Origin: Microvirga arvi
Lineage (GTDB): Bacteria > Pseudomonadota > Alphaproteobacteria > Rhizobiales > Beijerinckiaceae
Reading direction: 5' to 3'
Length of the DNA: 64,000 nt
Assembly (NCBI RefSeq): GCF_016892765.1
Contig: NZ_JAFEMD010000013.1
Location: forward strand, 62,001 to 126,000
Position 1 is the first letter of the stretch. Every line of letters begins with the position of its first letter. The translations under genes were made by a program, and so were the position numbers. The notes below the pieces were generated by a model. That model was not told the DNA's origin. It worked only from the letters and a program-made list of their open reading frames with translations, and searched no databases. Below are positions 6,082 through 41,920 of the stretch, piece after piece.

Positions 6082-7680
6082 TTAAGGAAAAGTTGAATGC
6101 TTCCCACGACGTACAACCAGGAGCATTAAGCAGATTACAAGCGTAACCGTCAAAGAAAACTTGCCCCCTTTGCTGTAAACAGTGGCAGCTTCCGCAACTG
6201 GTAGAGTTGAGTTTATGTTACCTTCAACTCCCAGTGGAAGTTCATCCACTATCCGTCCATAAGGATCGATCACAGCGGAGATCCCGGTATTGGCTGCGCG
6301 CAGCAGCGGCAGGCCTTCCTCCACGGCGCGCAGGCGGGCCTGAGCGAAATGCTGGTAAGGTCCGGGCGTCTGCCCGAACCAGGCATCGTTGGTCACGTTC
6401 AGGATGAGATCCGGGCGGGGGCCATCGGCCAGGATCTCGTTGGGAAAGATCGCCTCGTAGCAGATCGTCGCAGCGACCGGCGGCAATCCCGGAATAGCAA
6501 GCGTCATGCGCTTGTCGGCAGGTTCGAACCCACCCGGGATGTGAACGAACTGGCGCAGTCCAAAAGCCTTGATCAGGGCATCGAGGAATTTCGGCACGTA
6601 CTCGCCGAAGGGGACCAGATGCACCTTGTCGTAGGCGCCCAGAATCGTGCCGCGATCGTCGATGACCTGGATCGCGTTGTAGAACTTGCCTACCGCCTCC
6701 CCCGGCAACGGTTCGTCCATGCGGGCGGCACCCGTGATCAGCACGGAGCCCGGCTCCAGGAGGGCCCCGATCTGGGCGAGCGAGGCGGGGTCGCGATGAA
6801 GCAGGAACGGGAAGGCCGATTCGGGCCATATGATGTGCGTCGGCGCGGCGCCGTCCTTCCCCGGTCTCGCGCTCAGGGTCAGGTAGTGCCGCATGATGGC
6901 ATCGCGGTTGCGCGGGTTGAACTTGGCATCTTGCGGGAGATTCGGCTGCATGATGCGCAGGCGCACATCCCGGACGGTGGCGGAGGCTTCCGCCGGCAGG
7001 CGCCAGTAGCCGAAGCCGGCCATGCCGAGGAGCATCATCGCCGCCAAGGCCGGTACCGCCCATCGTGCGCGGCCTGCCGGTCCGGTCAGAAGGACCGCAG
7101 GAGCGGCGCCGATGCAGAGGCTCAGGAAAGTCAGGCCATAGAGCCCGACAAGGGAGGCGGACTGCATCAGCCAGAGATTCTGACCGAGCGCCATGCCGGG
7201 ACTGTTCCAGGGAAAGCCCGTGAAGAGATGGCCCCGCAGCCACTCGGCGATGGTCATTCCGAAGGCAAAGGCGAGGATGCGCCTGGCATCGGGCAGCCAG
7301 AGCAGGCGGGCGAGCGCAAAGCCGGCGGCCGGAAAGAAGGCGAGGAGAGCCGGCAGGCCCAGCACCCCGAAGGGCATGGCCCAGGCGAACTCCTCCGCCT
7401 CAACGAGGAAAGCGGCACCGAGCCACCAGAGGCCGGCCACGAACGTGCCGAAGCCCCAGAACCAGCCCAGCAGCGCCGCCGGTTTCAGAGGAGCCAAGCG
7501 GGACGGCCCCTCCTTCATGGTCCCGTCCAGAAGCCAGATGGCGGGAGCAAGCGACAGGACGAGCGCCGGCAGAAACCCGAAGGGCGGCATGGCCAAGGCA
7601 CCGATGGCCCCGGCCGTGAAGGCCGCAAGCCAGCGGCGCCAGCCTCGTAAAAGGCCAGCGCGCTTCGCCAACAGCCTCAT
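6082..7680 (-). CDS. lnt: Apolipoprotein N-acyltransferase
   Basis: Inner-membrane enzyme that adds the third acyl chain to the N-terminal cysteine of lipoproteins. The 532 residues have about six N-terminal membrane segments (to about 215), then a nitrilase-like catalytic domain. The catalytic triad is visible: Glu in HIIWPESAFPF, Lys in GAYDKVHLVPFGEYVP and Cys in VAATICYEAIFP. A last membrane segment near 505-525 anchors the C-terminus. It overlaps the CBS-domain gene upstream by ATGA. The homologue in Sinorhizobium (actA) is needed for acid and metal tolerance. Confidence 0.94.
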   Translation of the reverse strand: MRLLAKRAGLLRGWRRWLAAFTAGAIGALAMPPFGFLPALVLSLAPAIWLLDGTMKEGPSRLAPLKPAALLGWFWGFGTFVAGLWWLGAAFLVEAEEFAWAMPFGVLGLPALLAFFPAAGFALARLLWLPDARRILAFAFGMTIAEWLRGHLFTGFPWNSPGMALGQNLWLMQSASLVGLYGLTFLSLCIGAAPAVLLTGPAGRARWAVPALAAMMLLGMAGFGYWRLPAEASATVRDVRLRIMQPNLPQDAKFNPRNRDAIMRHYLTLSARPGKDGAAPTHIIWPESAFPFLLHRDPASLAQIGALLEPGSVLITGAARMDEPLPGEAVGKFYNAIQVIDDRGTILGAYDKVHLVPFGEYVPKFLDALIKAFGLRQFVHIPGGFEPADKRMTLAIPGLPPVAATICYEAIFPNEILADGPRPDLILNVTNDAWFGQTPGPYQHFAQARLRAVEEGLPLLRAANTGISAVIDPYGRIVDELPLGVEGNINSTLPVAEAATVYSKGGKFSLTVTLVICLMLLVVRRGKHSTFP

Positions 7681-8717
7681 TCGGCGGCAGCGCTTTCAGG
7701 GCGCGGCGGAGCGAGCGGCTGGCCTTCGCTGATCTCCACCTCCGAGGCGGCCGGTGAGCGGCGCAGAATGCGAAGCCGCTTCACGCGCCGGGGATCCGCA
7801 TCGAGAACCTCGAATTCGAGGCCTGCCGGTCCCACGATCACCTCGCTGCGGGACGGCACCCGGCCGGCGAGCGTCACGATGAAGCCACCGATCGTGTCGA
7901 TGTCCTCGGCGCCCTCTTCCTCGGTGAGATCGACGCCCAGGGTTTCCTTTACCTCGTCGAGGCTGGCCCTGGCATCGGCGATGTAGGTGCCCTCCGCCGC
8001 CTGCACGATGGTGAGGGTCGAGTCCTCGTCGTGCTCGTCCTCGATGTCGCCCACCACCATCTCTACGAGGTCCTCGATGGAGACGAGGCCGTCGGTGCCG
8101 CCGTATTCGTCGATCACGAGGGCCATGTGGGTGCGCGTCGCTTGCATCCGCACCAGGAGATCGATGGCAGGCATGGAGCGCGGCACGAAGAGGACCGGGC
8201 GCAGGATGTTGGCCGACGAGAGCGCCATCGACAGGTCGATGAGGCCAAGGCTCGGCAGGGGGGCCTCGTCGCTCGCTCCCGATTCCGAGGCCCCGCTATC
8301 GGCCCGCATGGCGATGAAATCGAGGAAGTCCCGGATGTGGACCATCCCCTTGGGATCGTCGAGGGTCTCGCCATAGACCGGCAGTCGGGAATGGCCCGCT
8401 GTCCGGAACAGGTTGAGCAGATCGCCCAGATTGGTGTCGGCGGCCACGGCCACGATGTCGGCACGGGGCACCATCACGTCCTCCACCCGGATGCGGTGGA
8501 AGGAGAGCACGTTCTTGAGCATCGCCCGCTCCTGGGGCGAGAAGTCCGTGTCTTCGACGGATTCCTCGAGGGCGTCCTCGAGATCGTGGCGGATGGATTC
8601 GCGGGGTTTCAGGCCCAGCCGGGTCAGAACCCGGTCGTACCAGTGGTCGCGTGTGTCGTCTGTCTCGGGAAAGGTTCGGACAGGAGGGCGTTCGCTGCGA
8701 CTTCGATCTTCGTTCAT
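7677..8717 (-). CDS. CorC/TlyC-type CBS-domain protein
   Basis: A soluble protein of 346 residues with two CBS domains (about 80-215; motifs [11 protein letters not shown] and [24 protein letters not shown]-like) and a C-terminal CorC_HlyC domain (about 235-320). Relatives are called CorC (magnesium/cobalt efflux partner) or hemolysin C, but the biochemical role of this lipid-free class is not settled. It has no membrane DUF21 domain. It sits between ybeY and lnt, as in most proteobacteria, and shares an ATGA overlap with lnt. Confidence 0.88.
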
Positions 8718-8738
8718 GGTCGTGGGTTAAGCCAGCCG

Positions 8739-9215
8739 TTATGCTGCCATATCGCGATAGGGATCGGCGATGCCAAGGGAGGCGAGCGCCTTGACCTCGA
8801 GACCTTCCATGATCTCCGCCTCCGCCTCGACCTCGTGGTCGTAGCCGAGAAGATGCAGAACGCCATGGACGATCAAATGGGCGAAATGATGCGCGAGTTC
8901 CTTGGATTCCTCTTCGGATTCGCGCACCAGGGTTTCGTAGGCTAAAGCAATATCGCCCAAATGGCGAGGGCCGCTCAAGCCCGGCGGCTCGGGTGCTGGG
9001 AAGGACAGCACGTTGGTGGGCTTGTCCTTGTCCCGCCAGGTGCGGTTCAATTCCCGGATCTGGGCGTCGTCGGTGAGCATGACGCTCGCCTCGAACTCCT
9101 CGTCCGCCTCGTAGGTGACGGCGAGCGCAGCCTCGGCGGCCTTCTGGGCCAGGGCCTCGGCGTCTTCGAGCCGGTCCCAATCGCCCGCTTCGATCATGAT
9201 GTCGAGGGTGATCAC
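8739..9215 (-). CDS. ybeY: Endoribonuclease YbeY
   Basis: A metal-dependent RNase needed for 16S rRNA 3' maturation and late ribosome quality control. The 158 residues contain the diagnostic zinc motif HGVLHLLGYDH near residue 117, after the NVLSFPAPEPPG and LGDIALAYE segments. The first codon is GTG, overlapping the phoH-like stop by GTGA, which argues for translational coupling. An internal ATG at codon 7 is a less likely start. In rhizobia YbeY also affects sRNA regulation. Confidence 0.95.
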   Translation of the reverse strand: MITLDIMIEAGDWDRLEDAEALAQKAAEAALAVTYEADEEFEASVMLTDDAQIRELNRTWRDKDKPTNVLSFPAPEPPGLSGPRHLGDIALAYETLVRESEEESKELAHHFAHLIVHGVLHLLGYDHEVEAEAEIMEGLEVKALASLGIADPYRDMAA

Positions 9216-10309
9216 GGCCTGCGGTCCCGGTAATCCTGGCGCGGCGGCTCCGGCGGCGCTTCGCGGGCGGCCTTGTCATAGGCGGTGACGATGCGGCGCA
9301 CGAGGTCGTGGCGCACCACGTCCGCCTCCTTGAAGGTGACGCGGGCGATGCCCTCGACGCCGTTCAGGATGCGCACGGCCTCGACCAGCCCCGATTTCTG
9401 GCCCGGCGGCAGGTCGATCTGGGTCGGGTCGCCGGTGATGATCATCCGCGAGCCCTCGCCGAGGCGGGTCAGAAACATCTTCATCTGCATCGACGTGGTG
9501 TTCTGCGCTTCGTCGAGCAGCACCAGGGCGTTGGTGAGCGTGCGCCCGCGCATGAAGGCTAATGGCGCGATCTCGATCATGCCGGTCTGCAGGCCCCGGT
9601 CTACGTGCCGCGCTTCCATGAAGTCGTAGAGCGCGTCATAGATCGGGCGAAGGTACGGGTCGACCTTCTCGCGCATGTCGCCGGGCAGGAAGCCGAGTCG
9701 CTCGCCCGCTTCCACGGCCGGGCGGGAGATGATCAGGCGGTCCACCTGCCCCGCTTCGAGCAGCGAGACCGCGTAGCCGACCGCCAGCCAGGTCTTGCCG
9801 GTGCCGGCCGGGCCTTCGGCAAAGATGAGCTCGTTCGTCTTGAGCGCCTTGATATAGGTGTTCTGCGAGGCGTTGCGGGCGCGCACCGGTCCGCGCCGGC
9901 GGGTGGAGATCTGGTCGAAGGCGGTCAGCCCCGAAGCGGACTGTTCCTCGGCCGCCGGGAAGAGGCTGCCCTGGAGGGTACTCTCCTCGATGGCGCCGTC
10001 CACATCGCCGGTCCCGAGCGCCCCACCCTGGCGGGCGCGCTCGTAGAGCCCTTCCAGGACACGCCGCGCCATCTCGGAGGCTTCCGGCGTGCCCTTCACG
10101 GTGACCCGGTTGCCGTTGGCGATCGCGGTCACGCCGAGGCGTCGCTCCAGATGGGCGAGGTTCTGGTCGTATTGTCCGAAAACGAGGCTGGCGAGGCGGT
10201 TGTCGTCGAAGGTGAGGATGATTTCGGCCTCTTCGACGACTCCGGGATGCAAGCTGCCTGTGTTGCGTCCCTTTTGTGCGCGTGCGGTCGCGTTGTCCGC
10301 TGGGCTCAA
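9212..10309 (-). CDS. ybeZ: PhoH-like ATPase (YbeZ)
   Basis: Cytoplasmic nucleotide-binding protein that partners YbeY in many bacteria. The 365 residues have a KH-like N-terminal part (about 25-110) and a PhoH ATPase domain with Walker A GPAGTGKTW near 148, the motif RPAVEAGERLGFLPGDMREKVDPYLRP, and Walker B ALVLLDEAQN. The start is TTG, with AGAGGAGAGG directly upstream. No ATG in a suitable place has a better site. The product's exact activity (RNA helicase or remodeller) is not proved. Confidence 0.93.
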   Translation of the reverse strand: MSPADNATARAQKGRNTGSLHPGVVEEAEIILTFDDNRLASLVFGQYDQNLAHLERRLGVTAIANGNRVTVKGTPEASEMARRVLEGLYERARQGGALGTGDVDGAIEESTLQGSLFPAAEEQSASGLTAFDQISTRRRGPVRARNASQNTYIKALKTNELIFAEGPAGTGKTWLAVGYAVSLLEAGQVDRLIISRPAVEAGERLGFLPGDMREKVDPYLRPIYDALYDFMEARHVDRGLQTGMIEIAPLAFMRGRTLTNALVLLDEAQNTTSMQMKMFLTRLGEGSRMIITGDPTQIDLPPGQKSGLVEAVRILNGVEGIARVTFKEADVVRHDLVRRIVTAYDKAAREAPPEPPRQDYRDRRP

Positions 10310-37068: not shown

Positions 37069-37153
37069 GCCCAGGTGGCGGAATTGGTAGACGCACTGCT
37101 TTCAGGTAGCAGCGGGTAACACCGTGGAGGTTCGAGTCCTCTCCTGGGCACCA
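37069..37153 (+). tRNA. tRNA-Leu (anticodon CAG)
   Basis: An 85-base class II tRNA with encoded CCA. The acceptor stem pairs GCCCAGG (37069-37075) with CCTGGGC (37143-37149). The anticodon stem CTGCT/AGCAG encloses TTCAGGT, giving CAG, which reads CUG codons. A long variable arm (CGGGTAACACCG) marks it as leucine, and the T-loop is TTCGAGT. Its last 18 bases recur with one change at 40775-40792, marking it as the attachment site of an island. Confidence 0.97.
37136..37153 (+). repeat. Left att-like repeat (3' end of tRNA-Leu)
   Basis: The 18 bases GTCCTCTCCTGGGCACCA match 40775-40792 at 17 of 18 positions. Site-specific islands typically use the T-arm to CCA end of a tRNA gene as the recombination core, and the recombinase remnant begins 100 bases further on. 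Confidence 0.75.
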
Positions 37154-37252
37154 ACATCTCGCTAAGGTGTTGATCCGCAAAGAAATCCCATAAAATCATA
37201 TGGCTTATCGTTTGCCGACTGGTACGGGCGGGGGGTACATATGGTTCTTGCG

Positions 37253-37780
37253 ATGAGTCGCCCCTGGAAGCATCCTGAGACAGGTCCCTACCATTTCCGG
37301 AAGTCGGTTCCTGACGATCTGCGCTTGGAAAGCGGGAAGAGAAGCGTTCCCTTCGGACCGAGAATCCTGCGATCGTTAAGCAGCGCCACGCCGATAAGCA
37401 GCGCCACGCCGAGGCGGCAGCCGAGATTGAACGAGCCTGGAGAATCCATCGCGCTAAACCTGAGCCTCTAACTCAACTTGAGATCATCGCATTGGCCGGC
37501 TTAATCCATGACGAGTGGGTGAGCGGAAAGCTAAGAGAAGAGCCCGGCACTCCAAGTTCATGGGAGCAGGTGCTTCGGCTTAACCGGCAGGCTCGGGAGG
37601 CAGGCAAACTGGAGCAGTGAGGGGGTCCCGTCGTGGATGAGCTTCTTGTCAGGCGGGTCTTCGGACCGATGCCCATAGCCGTGACCGCTTGATTGATGCC
37701 CTTGAGAAGGCCTTTACCCAAACGGTGGAGCAGCTGAAACGCAATGCGGAAGGCGACTATAGTCCGGATCCGAGAGCTAC
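37253..37780 (+). pseudogene. Decayed tyrosine recombinase (island integrase)
   Basis: The first frame reads MSRPWKHPETGPYHFRKSVPDDLR, the N-terminus of a DUF6538-type integrase. After a frameshift near 37330 the sense resumes as KQRHADKQRHAEAAAEIERAW and PLTQLEIIALAGLIHDEWV until a stop at 37618. A third frame continues with DRLIDALEKAFTQTVEQLKRNAEGDY up to about 37770. The catalytic domain is missing. Bases 37781-38175 show no supported gene, only a short readable stretch (GAYGRYILVEETTDTFDRVS) of unknown origin. Confidence 0.8.
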
Positions 37781-38175
37781 GGAGCCTACGGACGCTACAT
37801 CCTGGTCGAGGAGACTACGGATACCTTCGATAGGGTCTCCGCTGAGAGCAAGCGGCCGCGCGACGTGCGGTGAGGTTGTGCTGTCCGGCAGGATTCCAGA
37901 ATGGCTTTCAGAGCCAGCGAATGTCGGTTCTTGAGCGCTGAAGCAGACCACGCGCATACTTCTCGGAAATGACAGAGGGTGACGCTTAGGATCCGGCATG
38001 GTGACCAGTTGCGGAGAATCCTGTCCATGCTTGTCCGTTTGATGCTTGGGCGCTCGACTGTTAGCCTGCGGATTGCTCCACTCGTGGACGGTCCTGATAT
38101 CGATGCCGACCAGAGATTGCACCATCTTGCCGGCGATGCAGGACGAGCTTGAGCCGAACCCGAAGGTGAGAAGCG

Positions 38176-39225
38176 TTAGTGAAGCCGCCGCAGCGTTGCG
38201 GCAATGTCCGCCTCCATCGCTTGTGCGATGGGCTGCCGGTAGTGGATCTTGTCGAAGAACCATGCGGGATTCCTGATCTCAGGACGGTCGGTCCGCCAAT
38301 CGACCAGCGCTGTGCGGGCATGGCCCCTTTGCGCCGCCCCCGCGATCGCAACCTTGCAGGCCTGCAGGCGAAAGGCCTGCTCTGTCCCCTCGGGCGGCAG
38401 CCAATTCTTGTACAATGGGGGCACGACCAGAATAAGAGCTGCATCCTCCGGGAGAGAGGCGGCGACAATTCCGATCCGATCGGCGGCGGGGAAGTTCCGC
38501 ATCCCCGCCAGAGGATCCCGGTCGTGACGCGGGGCATTCGCATAGGGCTTGGCCGCAAGCTCCTGGCGGTGGGCTGCAGCCATCTTGTCACCCCGCTGCG
38601 TGTATTCGGCATCGTAATCCCAGTAGCCGTCTGGTCGGGAGCGCTCGGCATTCATCCCCAGCAGATAGGCCAAGCGCGGAGGTACCTCCTCCAGAACCTC
38701 CCAGCGCAACAGCCCGCGGGCATACGCGAGCGGGCTGGCCTCATAGAGCCAGAAGGGAAAGGGCCTCTCGTTCGCCAAAGCGGGATCGGATGTGCACCAC
38801 GTCTCATCGATGCTCACCAGCAGCGCCTTCGCTGGCTCCCTCCGATGGCTCAGGAACCAGTCGATCAGGGCGAGTTGCTCCTTGGGGCCCGAGCCCGGAA
38901 CCGACATCTGGACGAAATCCAAACCGGTCGCTTTCTTCAGCCGCTCGGGCGAGATGAGCTGGATTCTGGAATTTCCCACGATCATGGCCTTGAAGGCGGG
39001 ATCCCGTCCGCGGCTGGCATTTCCCGTCGCCGGGGCCAAGGCACGCACGCCTGCATGGGAGAAGAAGGGCGACCGGCCGGTGTCATAGGGCTCGATCAGA
39101 TAGATGCCCGCCAGCATAATAGCGAGAACGATCACTGCTGCTGCCACGAGCATGACCGCGAAACGCCGCCAGAGCGCGTCGTCTTGCCGGGCGGCGGCCT
39201 CAGAACTGGAAATAGATGAATTCAT
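38176..39225 (-). CDS. Membrane-anchored SGNH-type protein, partner of the MBOAT acyltransferase
   Basis: A protein of 349 residues with one N-terminal membrane anchor (VMLVAAAVIVLAIMLAGIYLI) and a large extracytoplasmic part. A GDSL/SGNH-like nucleophile motif AMIVGNSRIQLI lies near residue 82, and a C-terminal DKIHYRQPIAQAM offers the Asp and His of a DxxH pair. This resembles AlgJ/AlgX or DltD proteins that work with MBOAT enzymes to O-acylate polymers outside the membrane. It overlaps the MBOAT 3' end by 26 bases, so the pair is coupled. It is part of the tRNA-Leu island. Confidence 0.8.
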   Translation of the reverse strand: MNSSISSSEAAARQDDALWRRFAVMLVAAAVIVLAIMLAGIYLIEPYDTGRSPFFSHAGVRALAPATGNASRGRDPAFKAMIVGNSRIQLISPERLKKATGLDFVQMSVPGSGPKEQLALIDWFLSHRREPAKALLVSIDETWCTSDPALANERPFPFWLYEASPLAYARGLLRWEVLEEVPPRLAYLLGMNAERSRPDGYWDYDAEYTQRGDKMAAAHRQELAAKPYANAPRHDRDPLAGMRNFPAADRIGIVAASLPEDAALILVVPPLYKNWLPPEGTEQAFRLQACKVAIAGAAQRGHARTALVDWRTDRPEIRNPAWFFDKIHYRQPIAQAMEADIAATLRRLH

Positions 39226-40573
39226 AATTCGCATCATCGCCGATCTTGAACAGCACAACCACGAGGAGGATCGCGAAGCCGATGGCGATCCAGCGGCGCG
39301 GCGGAAGCCGGTGCACGAAGGTCCAGGCCGTGGGGCCGAGCACGGCGACCAGCGCCGCGATCAGGATCGTGCGCCACTTGATCGACGGATCCGCGCCACC
39401 GAGGCCGACCAAGCCCTCGTAAACCCGCAGCGCCGCCTCAAAGCTCGTGGCGCGGAAGAGCACCCAGGTGAGCATCACGAACAGCAGGGTCAGGGCCCAG
39501 CCCGCCGGGCGCGGCATGGAGAGCCCCGCCCGTCTCCAGAGGAGGCCGGCTCCGAGCACAAGACCGTGGGCGGCACCCCAGGCCACGAAAGTCAGCCCCG
39601 CGCCATGCCAAAGGCCGCCTAGGGTCATGGTGGCGAACAAGGCCCCCAGCTGGATCGCCAAGCCTTTCCGATTGCCGCCCATGGCGATGTAGAGGTAGTC
39701 GCGCAGGAAGCGCGACAGGGTCATGTGCCAGCGCCTCCAGAAATCCTGCAGCGACACCGAACGGTAAGGCGCATCGAAGTTCTGCGGCAGGACGATGCCG
39801 AAGAGCAATGCGAGGCCGAGCGCCATGTCCGTGTAGCCCGAGAAGTCGAAATAGATCTGGAAGGTGAAACCGAGCATCGCCTGCCAGGCCTCGCCCAACG
39901 CGATGGCTTTTCCTGCGGCAGCAGCCTGAAAGATCGGATTGACGTATTCGGAAAGGGGATCGCCGAGCAGGGCCTTCTTCGCCAGGCCGCAGACCAGCAG
40001 CATGAGACCCCGCGTGAAGCGCTCGACGGCGTCAGGCTTCCGATAAGGCCGCTCCTCGAACTGGTGCATGATCTCGCTCCAGCGCACGAGAGGCCCTGCG
40101 AGAACCTGCGGAAAGAAGGCGATGTAGAGGCCGTAGCGGACGGGATCGTAAAGGGGCGCTTTGCCCTTCTTCAGATCCGTCAGGTACATGATGTGATGAA
40201 ACGTGAAGAACGAGATGCCGAGCGGCAGCGCAATCTCGAAGTGGCGCGTCGGCAACCCCGGGATGTAGGCAGCGAGATCGGCGAAGAAGTTGAAGTACTT
40301 GAAGATCGCGAGGACGAGCAGGTTGGCGGCGATTGACAGGGAGATCAGAATGGAGAGCCCCGAGCGCACGAAGGCGTTCGCGACGAGCCAGTTGAGTGCC
40401 ATGGAGCCGACCAGCAGCGGCATGAACCGCCAGTCCCAATAGCCGTAGAAGATCAGCGACAGCCCCAAGAGCACAGCCAGCCGCCATTTGGGCCAAAACC
40501 GCTCCACGGCCCAATGGGCCAGCAGTGCGGCAGGCAGGAAGGCGAACAGGAAGATGAACGAGTTGAAGAGCAT
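39200..40573 (-). CDS. MBOAT-family O-acyltransferase (AlgI-like)
   Basis: An integral membrane acyltransferase of 457 residues with about 11 hydrophobic segments. It starts MLFNSFIFLFAFLPAALLAHW, as AlgI/PatA proteins do. It carries FLRDYLYIAMGGNRKG and the catalytic His in MTLGGLWHGAGLTFVAWGAAHG near residue 320. It should pass acetyl groups across the membrane for modification of an exported polysaccharide. No polymer synthase is present in the island, so the acceptor is unknown. Confidence 0.92.
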   Translation of the reverse strand: MLFNSFIFLFAFLPAALLAHWAVERFWPKWRLAVLLGLSLIFYGYWDWRFMPLLVGSMALNWLVANAFVRSGLSILISLSIAANLLVLAIFKYFNFFADLAAYIPGLPTRHFEIALPLGISFFTFHHIMYLTDLKKGKAPLYDPVRYGLYIAFFPQVLAGPLVRWSEIMHQFEERPYRKPDAVERFTRGLMLLVCGLAKKALLGDPLSEYVNPIFQAAAAGKAIALGEAWQAMLGFTFQIYFDFSGYTDMALGLALLFGIVLPQNFDAPYRSVSLQDFWRRWHMTLSRFLRDYLYIAMGGNRKGLAIQLGALFATMTLGGLWHGAGLTFVAWGAAHGLVLGAGLLWRRAGLSMPRPAGWALTLLFVMLTWVLFRATSFEAALRVYEGLVGLGGADPSIKWRTILIAALVAVLGPTAWTFVHRLPPRRWIAIGFAILLVVVLFKIGDDANYEFIYFQF

Positions 40574-40595
40574 CCCTGCTGAAGCATCGTTGGAT

Positions 40596-40620
40596 GGTGC
40601 GGAACGCTCTGTTCCGCACC
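40596..40620. other. Perfect 10-bp stem upstream of the MBOAT gene
   Basis: GGTGCGGAAC pairs perfectly with GTTCCGCACC over a 5-base loop, 23 bases before the MBOAT start. No T-run follows. It could be a regulator site or a leader hairpin. The remainder of 40574-40920 contains only the right att repeat and no gene. Confidence 0.5.
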
Positions 40621-40774
40621 TTGAGAGCGCGTCCTTGTGCGGGAATGCAGGCCCAGCGTCAACTTTCGATGATGGAAGTTACTGAGGGCTGACCGGATGC
40701 GTGTCACACCGCCGCGGCCTGTGCGCGGCTCATTCGAGCCTGCAGGATCAAAAACTTAGGCCTCAGAGATACCT

Positions 40775-40792
40775 GTCCTCTTCTGGGCACCA
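40775..40792 (+). repeat. Right att-like repeat (copy of tRNA-Leu 3' end)
   Basis: GTCCTCTTCTGGGCACCA differs by one base from the last 18 bases of tRNA-Leu. Bases just after it still resemble those after the tRNA (both contain CACCAA and then TAAGG). The surrounding bases do not form a tRNA. It marks the far end of a segment of about 3.6 kb. Confidence 0.75.
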
Positions 40793-40920
40793 ATCTTCTC
40801 TTAAGGGTTCAATGCTTGATATCCCGCCTATTCATAGGCTCGTAGATCCAGTCTGATACAGACGAGTCCATTGACGGCTTCTCGATTGGATCTCTTCCGC
40901 CGTCCTGTCCAGAGAGGGCA

Positions 40921-41844
40921 TCAGCGCTCCAGAATGGGCCTGATCTCCTGAAAACTCTCGATCGTGTGCTCCAAGTGGCGGCGTAGCGCCTGCGAGGCCT
41001 CAGCGTTTTTTCCGCGTTCCAGGAGCTCGAGGATCTGCAGGTGTTCCTCGCATTGCCGGCGGTAGCGCTTGCGGTCGATCATCGAGCGGTACGAGAGCAG
41101 GCGGCGAACACGGTTGATACGCCGGACGGCATCGAGAAAGAACGGATTGCCGGACGCGCCGATGATCGCCTCATGAAACCGCACGCCGCGTTCATGGAGC
41201 GCATCGGCGCTGTCGGTCTCGATGGCGCCTCCGAGAAGCCGGAGCTCGGCCTCGCGACAGCGGGCGGCTACTTCGGGATTGAGATGGTATGTCGGCTCCA
41301 GCAGAGCGGCGGGTTCGAGGGCGAGGCGCACGCGATAGGTCTGCTCCAGGCATTCGGGCGTCGTGAGCATGGGTGAGAAGGACCAGCCGTAGCCGGGGCG
41401 GCGCTCGGCCCAGCCTTCCTGGGCGATCCGGCCCAGCACCGCGTTCAGCTGCGCCTTCGTGACGCGATAGGTTTCCTTGAGGTAGGCCTCGGAGGCCGGA
41501 TCCGGGAGGCGCCCATGCAGATGGTCCTCGGCCATTCTGAAATAGATCTGGGAGGTCTCGTCCCGCCTGTCCAAGCCAAGGGCTTCCGCCGATGCCTGCC
41601 TGGCATCCGACACGAAGTAGCCCCTGTTGCGCTCATGGATGAGAACACCCTTCAGGGCGAGCAATTGCAGAGCCTGGCCGATGGGAAACCGGGAGACGCT
41701 GAACCGCTGCGCCAGTTCCTGCGCCGTTACATGCGTCCCGGCAGCCAGTCCGGATCCGCGGATGTGGTCGAGGATCTGCGCGGCCAGCCCTTCGGTCATT
41801 TCCCGTTTGCTGCCTATGGCGCGCTCACTGACTGAGGAACTCAT
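40921..41844 (-). CDS. GntR-family regulator with FCD-like domain
   Basis: A regulator of 307 residues. The winged helix is at about 15-80 (EGLAAQILDHIRGSGLAAGTHVTAQELAQRFSVSRFPIGQALQLLALKGVLIHERNRGYFV). An FCD-type effector domain follows (about 165-295), with several His and Asp residues suited to metal and carboxylate binding. It is the third gene of acnA-Bug-gntR, so it is the likely reader of the large palindrome upstream of acnA. The ATG at 41844 is chosen; one 42 bases earlier is possible. Confidence 0.88.
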   Translation of the reverse strand: MSSSVSERAIGSKREMTEGLAAQILDHIRGSGLAAGTHVTAQELAQRFSVSRFPIGQALQLLALKGVLIHERNRGYFVSDARQASAEALGLDRRDETSQIYFRMAEDHLHGRLPDPASEAYLKETYRVTKAQLNAVLGRIAQEGWAERRPGYGWSFSPMLTTPECLEQTYRVRLALEPAALLEPTYHLNPEVAARCREAELRLLGGAIETDSADALHERGVRFHEAIIGASGNPFFLDAVRRINRVRRLLSYRSMIDRKRYRRQCEEHLQILELLERGKNAEASQALRRHLEHTIESFQEIRPILER

Positions 41845-41920
41845 TAAAACCCTGACCCTGTCCTTGGAAACCGCCCGTCTTCGCATCGGCGATTCCTGTC
41901 AGGTATAGCACCACATTCCT

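Follow-up and report, generated by a model that had tools for sequence, protein, structure and literature searches.

A decayed island at tRNA-Leu(CAG) of Microvirga arvi, with a probably horizontally acquired MBOAT/SGNH gene pair for putative O-acylation

A 64,000-nucleotide stretch of the Microvirga arvi genome (assembly GCF_016892765.1, contig NZ_JAFEMD010000013.1, positions 62,001 to 126,000; hereafter the window) holds, between a tRNA-Leu(CAG) gene and a copy of that gene's 3' end, a 3.6-kb island with a broken tyrosine recombinase and one surviving cargo operon, formed by the genes for an MBOAT O-acyltransferase and its SGNH-type partner. We hold it to be very probable that this is an immobilised tRNA-Leu island with a decayed recombinase, and that the cargo is a horizontally acquired O-acylation pair resembling PatAB and DltBD. 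An original prediction, made from the letters of the window, had described an integrated element that lost its mobility and kept its cargo; that observation is confirmed by our analysis, and the reading of the locus as a decayed island is supported by the repeat, by empty sites in related genomes, by the broken recombinase, and by a history of the pair unlike that of its neighbours.

The only tRNA that ARAGORN finds in the window is tRNA-Leu(CAG) (37069-37153, plus strand), the putative host of the attachment site, and a NAD-epimerase gene adjoins it in each of the 48 Microvirga genomes that were searched. Its last 18 bases, GTCCTCTCCTGGGCACCA (37136-37153, plus strand; attL), recur 3.6 kb downstream as GTCCTCTTCTGGGCACCA (40775-40792, plus strand; attR) with one change, 17 of the 18 letters being shared, as was originally proposed. 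Nor is this repeat scattered through the genome, an outcome that had been named as damaging to the proposal: when the varying base was left free and up to two mismatches were allowed, the tail pattern was found at these two sites only in the whole 6.46-Mb genome. The reversed pattern, used as a control in the same search, gave four matches, and a two-mismatch match somewhere in the genome is hence ordinary; a copy with a single change 3.6 kb past the tRNA is unlikely to be due to chance (our own estimate, 55 x 4000 / 4^18, is ~3e-6). Exact tail copies of 16-18 bases were also seen further downstream of the tRNA at loci L042, L066, and L068 (genomes G034, G020, and G024), and these, along with integrases and integrase remnants at the same site in other genomes, point to the repeat as the attachment site of a busy hotspot.

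In two of the 47 other genomes, G009 and G069, the site is empty, and only 100-125 bp separate the tRNA from gntR-tctC-acnA, which is also the flank that follows the island in the window. There the gntR gene (40921-41886, minus strand), coding for a GntR/FCD regulator according to the domain scan, stands beyond the island, while in the two empty genomes it adjoins the tRNA; relatives running from tRNA-Leu directly into gntR, which the original prediction suggested looking for, do therefore exist. In an ungapped comparison, the 35 letters to the right of attR agreed with these two empty sites at 19 and 21 positions, with three other gntR-side flanks at 14-17, and with the flanks on the integrase side (those of the window, G065, and G034) at 13. 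The opposite situation, with the pair fixed beside tRNA-Leu in all relatives and no empty site, was not seen, as the window is the only place where the pair stands at this tRNA, and it was found there in none of the other genomes over stretches of 12-15 kb (a few shorter at contig ends). An integrase or a remnant of one lies within 3 kb of tRNA-Leu(CAG) in 25 of these 47 genomes, a count obtained with three profiles built from three clusters at these same loci, which makes many of the matches a product of construction; one member of each cluster was compared with Pfam, and the survey covered 49 loci for the 47 genomes, with L038, L055, L063, and L074 being short because of contig ends. tRNA-Leu(CAG) is a much used integration site in Microvirga.

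Other arrangements were encountered at the same tRNA. In G025 and G027, stretches are bounded by a complete additional tRNA-Leu(CAG) (L061, 301-385 and 11027-11111; L069, 301-385 and 4583-4667, oriented to have the tRNA on the plus strand), and in G032 a copy precedes gntR on another contig (L064, 7913-7997); given these whole copies, some elements seem to carry the full tRNA and not the tail alone. In G024 (L068, 301-12001, tRNA on the plus strand), an integrase and an exact 18-base tail at 9378 are followed at 9687 by a second integrase-like match, 33% identical to one piece, and two tandem islands may be present. Last, the 4.2 kb between tRNA-Leu and gntR in G015 (L072, 385-4559) hold a transporter-like and an oxidoreductase-like gene, as judged by eye, and two small genes; no integrase of the three clusters was found in the first 3 kb of this locus, nor was the tail repeat found there.

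The recombinase remnant occupies positions 37241-37778 on the plus strand, and alignment to the enzyme of G065 accounts for residues 1-175 of 513, spread over three frames. That a frameshifted and truncated tyrosine recombinase follows the tRNA was part of the original prediction and holds, except that it starts 88 bases past the tRNA and not 100. G065 has the homologous 513-residue recombinase in an open frame, at the same place and at the same distance after tRNA-Leu, and the three pieces of the remnant, at 37241-37342 (residues 1-34), 37315-37656 (residues 28-134), and 37656-37778 (residues 135-175), are respectively 76%, 60%, and 71% identical to it. The remnant has one in-frame TGA in the main alignment and two in a second one, as well as six residues inserted by a short duplication. 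For residues 176-513, alignment to the G065 enzyme gave no credible match at the window locus, and no further copy of the recombinase was found in the window's genome. Because the frame and everything after residue 175 are lost, the island presumably can no longer excise itself with its own recombinase, and would be a relic rather than an active element. The remnant is assigned to the tyrosine recombinases on the strength of its alignment to relatives: two of its fragments reached no family in Pfam, the G065 enzyme was scanned for domains with local profiles only, and a same-site relative in G005 scored over the cut-off for DUF6538 and just under it for Phage_integrase (26.6 of 27.1 bits).

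The cargo genes are both open and overlap on the minus strand, so that the coupled and intact pair of the original prediction is indeed present inside the island. The MBOAT gene (39200-40573; PF03062, E 5.2e-30) encodes His323 within a WHG motif and a COOH-terminal FIYFQF containing Tyr454, and both the WHG and the general FxYxxF motif were found in 24 of 24 MBOATs; its best NCBIfam match is DltB, at 154 of 375 bits and far under the cut-off. The partner (38176-39258), with putative catalytic residues Ser97, Asp336, and His339 numbered from a TTG start (an ATG at 39225 may be used instead), shows GNS at 95-97 and D336xxH339 to be invariant in six aligned sequences; a stricter version of the motif pattern missed some of the more distant partners. 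No Pfam or NCBIfam model matched the SGNH protein at cut-off, and it had no match at E 1 among the sequences of solved structures and none in the plasmid collection. Its AlphaFold2 model, built with six sequences, is poor (pLDDT, the predicted local distance difference test score, of 57), and the best match of this model in the PDB, of low confidence, is DltD (E 4.6e-4, template modelling score 0.36), which backs an SGNH fold without proving it. The protein is thus a candidate SGNH enzyme, given its motifs, its alignment to related sequences, and a fold match of low confidence. Between the repeats, the codon-usage gene caller placed no further gene, and 37779-38175 is an eroded stretch devoid of gene calls; compared to the rest of the genus, 37770-38176 gave short and patchy matches only.

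Ratios of nonsynonymous to synonymous substitution rates (dN/dS) against relatives range between 0.14 and 0.16 for the MBOAT and between 0.13 and 0.26 for the SGNH gene, low values that indicate purifying selection on both between species. Judging from sequence, the pair is apparently functional in O-acylation of the PatAB/DltBD kind, and its likely task is the attachment of small acyl groups to a polymer of the surface or the cell wall. In PatAB, according to a published study (PMC12148441), the MBOAT histidine loads acetyl from acetyl-CoA onto the tyrosine of the motif, from which it passes to the SGNH serine and then to the polymer; the same study treats FxYxxF as an acyl-shuttle motif and extends the model to other MBOAT-SGNH pairs. 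If the window's pair works alike, as is most likely from its motifs, His323 would move an acyl group, probably acetyl from acetyl-CoA, to Tyr454 of FIYFQF outside the membrane, and the SGNH protein would pass it through its Ser97, Asp336, and His339 to a hydroxyl group on a polymer of the periplasm or the cell surface. As for the identity of this polymer, the pair of G025 lies 1.4 kb before HlyD-like and cellulose-synthase-like genes, both under their NCBIfam cut-offs, and at the place between ycjF and dksA where the pair stands in other genomes, the protein scan revealed no recognisable polymer genes.

An MBOAT of at least 69% identity is present in 30 of the 48 genomes (readable only in part in G065), and an SGNH match, in some cases distant, in 29. 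By coordinates, the MBOAT falls within ~3.2 kb of a ycjF copy in 12 of the 48, and the gene maps of six of these share the order ycjX, ycjF, MBOAT, SGNH, dksA, FliO-like, and CckA-like, with extra genes in between in some. Maps were obtained with a simple codon-usage gene caller and clustering; the YcjX and DksA names come from Pfam, and the genes that we take to be ycjF (Pfam DUF697), FliO-like, and CckA-like were named in part by eye. Among the 19 ycjF loci examined, 17 have no pair between ycjF and dksA, including those of the window's genome (G000), G069, G009, G025, and G021; of the remaining two, G012 has the pair, and the G002 stretch is without dksA. The window's pair nonetheless stands next to what comparison with relatives reveals as a foreign ycjF stub (40704-40733, minus strand), nine codons reading MSRAQAAAV and a stop (TGA, 40706-40704), followed on the same strand by CACGCATC and then by a conserved stretch. 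This upstream region (40574-40703, minus strand), carried along with the pair, contains a TTGAC box (40662-40658) conserved among relatives; a promoter and terminator scan found nothing over shuffled sequences, so that it is conservation that singles out the box. The end of the stub, AAAV-TGA-CACGCATC, equals the ycjF 3' end of G068, a genome in which the pair stands at ycjF, while the ycjF of the window's own genome ends AAAT-TAA with a different sequence after it. A foreign stub and an own ycjF-dksA locus devoid of the pair together indicate that the window's pair most likely came out of the ycjF-type locus of another lineage. The stub beside the pair is shorter in G025 and longer in G021 (54 residues aligned, one stop), and none was seen beside the pair in G069 and G009.

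Could the pair instead have moved within its own genome, from ycjF-dksA to tRNA-Leu, with no transfer between species? The absence of the pair from the genome's own ycjF-dksA locus and the presence of a ycjF stub beside the window copy would both fit such a move, which we nevertheless disfavour as improbable: the own ycjF, past its AAAT-TAA end, continues with sequence like that of pairless relatives and unlike that of the stub, the nearest relatives are without the pair, and the silent sites of the MBOAT are far nearer to those of G025 than the core genes are. This last result comes from a comparison of fourfold degenerate (4-fold) sites in pairs of genomes that we chose, ten inside and 19 outside a group of relocated carriers. 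The group (G000, G025, G021, G009, and G069) had been named by location and identity before any tree was built; G065 counts as a sixth carrier. Among the five carriers, MBOAT 4-fold identity is 0.75-0.89 versus 0.54-0.81 for ycjX, ycjF, dksA, and cckA, and for G000 and G025 compared to the other relocated carriers it is 0.75-0.82 versus 0.54-0.58. The excess of the MBOAT over the core genes reaches at least 0.15 in nine of the ten comparisons inside the group, the tenth being G009-G069, which share the same place (+0.08); in the 19 outside, the difference ranges from -0.20 to +0.09.

Phylogeny points in the same direction. The original prediction had suggested comparing the phylogeny of the island genes to that of their neighbours, and the two differ: in the core tree the five relocated carriers do not form a clade (approximately unbiased, or AU, test, p 2.4e-5; with G065 as the sixth carrier, p 3.9e-22), and G000 is placed among species without the pair, while in the MBOAT and SGNH trees (24 MBOATs with three outgroups, and 23 SGNHs) the relocated copies are one clade (100/99), which for the MBOAT also holds with the readable part of the G065 gene. 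In the core tree, G002 was 45% filled, and G065 was labelled pairless in the five-carrier test and carrier in the six-carrier one. Furthermore, the neighbouring epimerase is an independent gene, and its top eight matches come without exception from genomes in which no MBOAT was matched. Exchange between species follows from the trees and from the silent sites of the MBOAT, and the pair was apparently acquired from a related species. An MBOAT of high identity in so many of the genomes might also be what remains of a pair ancestral to the genus and lost many times over, the tRNA repeat being a coincidence; we regard such vertical inheritance as extremely improbable in view of the empty tRNA sites, the silent-site identities, the AU tests, and the uniqueness of the repeat, and at the window locus the empty sites and trees refute it, provided that the trees hold genome-wide.

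Taken in order, the events would then be as follows. An integrative element would have inserted itself at the tRNA-Leu(CAG) 3' end through site-specific recombination, presumably by its tyrosine recombinase, so that the tRNA stayed whole and the 17/18 copy of its tail came to lie beyond the element; the element would have shrunk, with the recombinase losing its frame and all that came after residue 175; and the surviving cargo would be the MBOAT/SGNH pair of another Microvirga lineage, in which it stands between ycjF and dksA, still dragging nine codons and the stop of the donor ycjF together with its own upstream region. A number of points weigh against this account. The stub is only nine codons long, and the edge of the unit lies ~40 bases from attR, which makes insertion into an older island fit as well. 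The SGNH assignment has to be read alongside the lack of a Pfam match at cut-off and the low pLDDT already mentioned, and dN/dS between species is no proof of selection since arrival in the window's strain. The excess at 4-fold sites is clear for the SGNH gene in two of six comparisons (G000-G025, +0.17; G025-G069, +0.12), with the other four between -0.05 and +0.05, and given this weaker signal, the histories of MBOAT and SGNH may differ at some steps. Finally, the core tree is made up of four genes beside the donor locus in 24 of the 48 genomes.

The proximity to attR leads to an alternative to which we assign a substantial chance, even if one short of even, namely that the pair came separately, its ycjF tail, MBOAT, and SGNH being inserted by an insertion sequence or by illegitimate recombination into a tRNA-Leu island already in decay. 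The same compact unit is in fact found away from any tRNA in G025, in G021, and at a place common to G009 and G069, where ARAGORN reports no tRNA, and in G021 the contig that carries it begins and ends with copies of one two-gene cluster; the unit in the window, however, is enclosed by attL and attR, and only short matches were obtained for the eroded stretch. Going further, one may tentatively see in the 2.6-kb unit of stub, upstream region, MBOAT, and SGNH a travelling surface-modification cassette of Microvirga, once cut from ycjF-dksA and passed between species to at least four unrelated chromosomal places (tRNA-Leu in the window, one each in G025 and G021, and the one common to G009 and G069, where G009 retains the MBOAT alone), although we think this rather doubtful. 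If it were true, the cassette would have kept its own upstream region, and a new host would gain another acylation pattern without acquiring polymer genes.

Some of these genomes deserve separate mention. In G009 (L084, reversed, 7429-9431; L085, 8276-9277), no SGNH partner follows the MBOAT, and another contig holds an SGNH that shares 57% identity with that of the window. In G021, pair and stub lie on an 11.5-kb contig (L083, 1-11494) with the cluster c45/c46 at both ends; by eye these two genes are transposase-like, and their position suggests another vehicle. G021 has a second MBOAT copy, at 71%, besides the relocated type, and its core-tree neighbours G017 and G035 have copies at 70-71%. 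We also considered a link through the small genes c9, c20, and c28, common to the tRNA-Leu loci of G035, G003, and G017 and to the neighbourhood of the pair in G069 and G009, and rejected it, as these read like household genes (presumably S21-like and cold-shock-like, judged by eye).

Our preferred reading of an immobilised island with an acquired O-acylation pair places the locus among known systems. Like other tRNA-targeted islands and satellite prophages, it shows integration at a tRNA 3' end, an integrase by the tRNA, a direct repeat on the far side, and an empty site in relatives; unlike them, it is very small (3.6 kb), its integrase is broken, and a single cargo operon survives. Franklin et al. 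(2004) are said to have described lateral gene transfer of algI/algJ, the alginate acetylation cassette, which likewise consists of an MBOAT and an SGNH gene and has been transferred laterally, but no alginate genes (the AlgI/J/F/X setting) could be recognised when proteins beside the pair were scanned, in the window or at ycjF-dksA. With PatA/PatB of peptidoglycan O-acetylation and with DltB/DltX/DltD, as described in PMC12148441, the window's pair shares the MBOAT histidine, the COOH-terminal FxYxxF, and an adjoining partner that is putatively SGNH-type; it differs in that this partner has no family match at cut-off and that no dlt or peptidoglycan genes are among the seven flanking window proteins scanned.

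With regard to what the pair does for its host, surface acylation often alters recognition, and by analogy with prophage O-acetyltransferases, the pair might serve in phage resistance or antigen conversion by changing how receptors are recognised. Its place as cargo of a tRNA-targeted element would suit this role, which we consider unlikely all the same, as gene calling gave nothing else in the island and nothing but the integrase points to a phage origin. Symbiosis was considered as a reason for the pair and set aside. NodC has a match in eight of the 48 genomes (seven over the curated cut-off, the eighth a split match), among them three of the six with a relocated-type MBOAT (G025, G021, and G009, but not G000, G069, and G065) versus five of the 42 others, a post hoc count whose hypergeometric p of 0.0497 is marginal and at the edge of chance; in the window's genome there was no NodC match at E 1e-60, and symbiosis does not explain the island there. 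Still, with NodC matches in eight Microvirga genomes, envelope chemistry may bear on plant contact in the genus.

None of the titles among the matches listed in a literature search, whose coverage leaves out most subscription journals, names a Microvirga tRNA island or this MBOAT/SGNH pair. Immobilised tRNA islands with an envelope-acylation pair gained by horizontal transfer belong to a kind already known, and the window holds a clear small example. Its value lies in the fact that the travel of a polymer-acylation operon can be traced, as the sequences display the locus of origin, a site still empty, the defunct vehicle, and the fossil of the donor gene.

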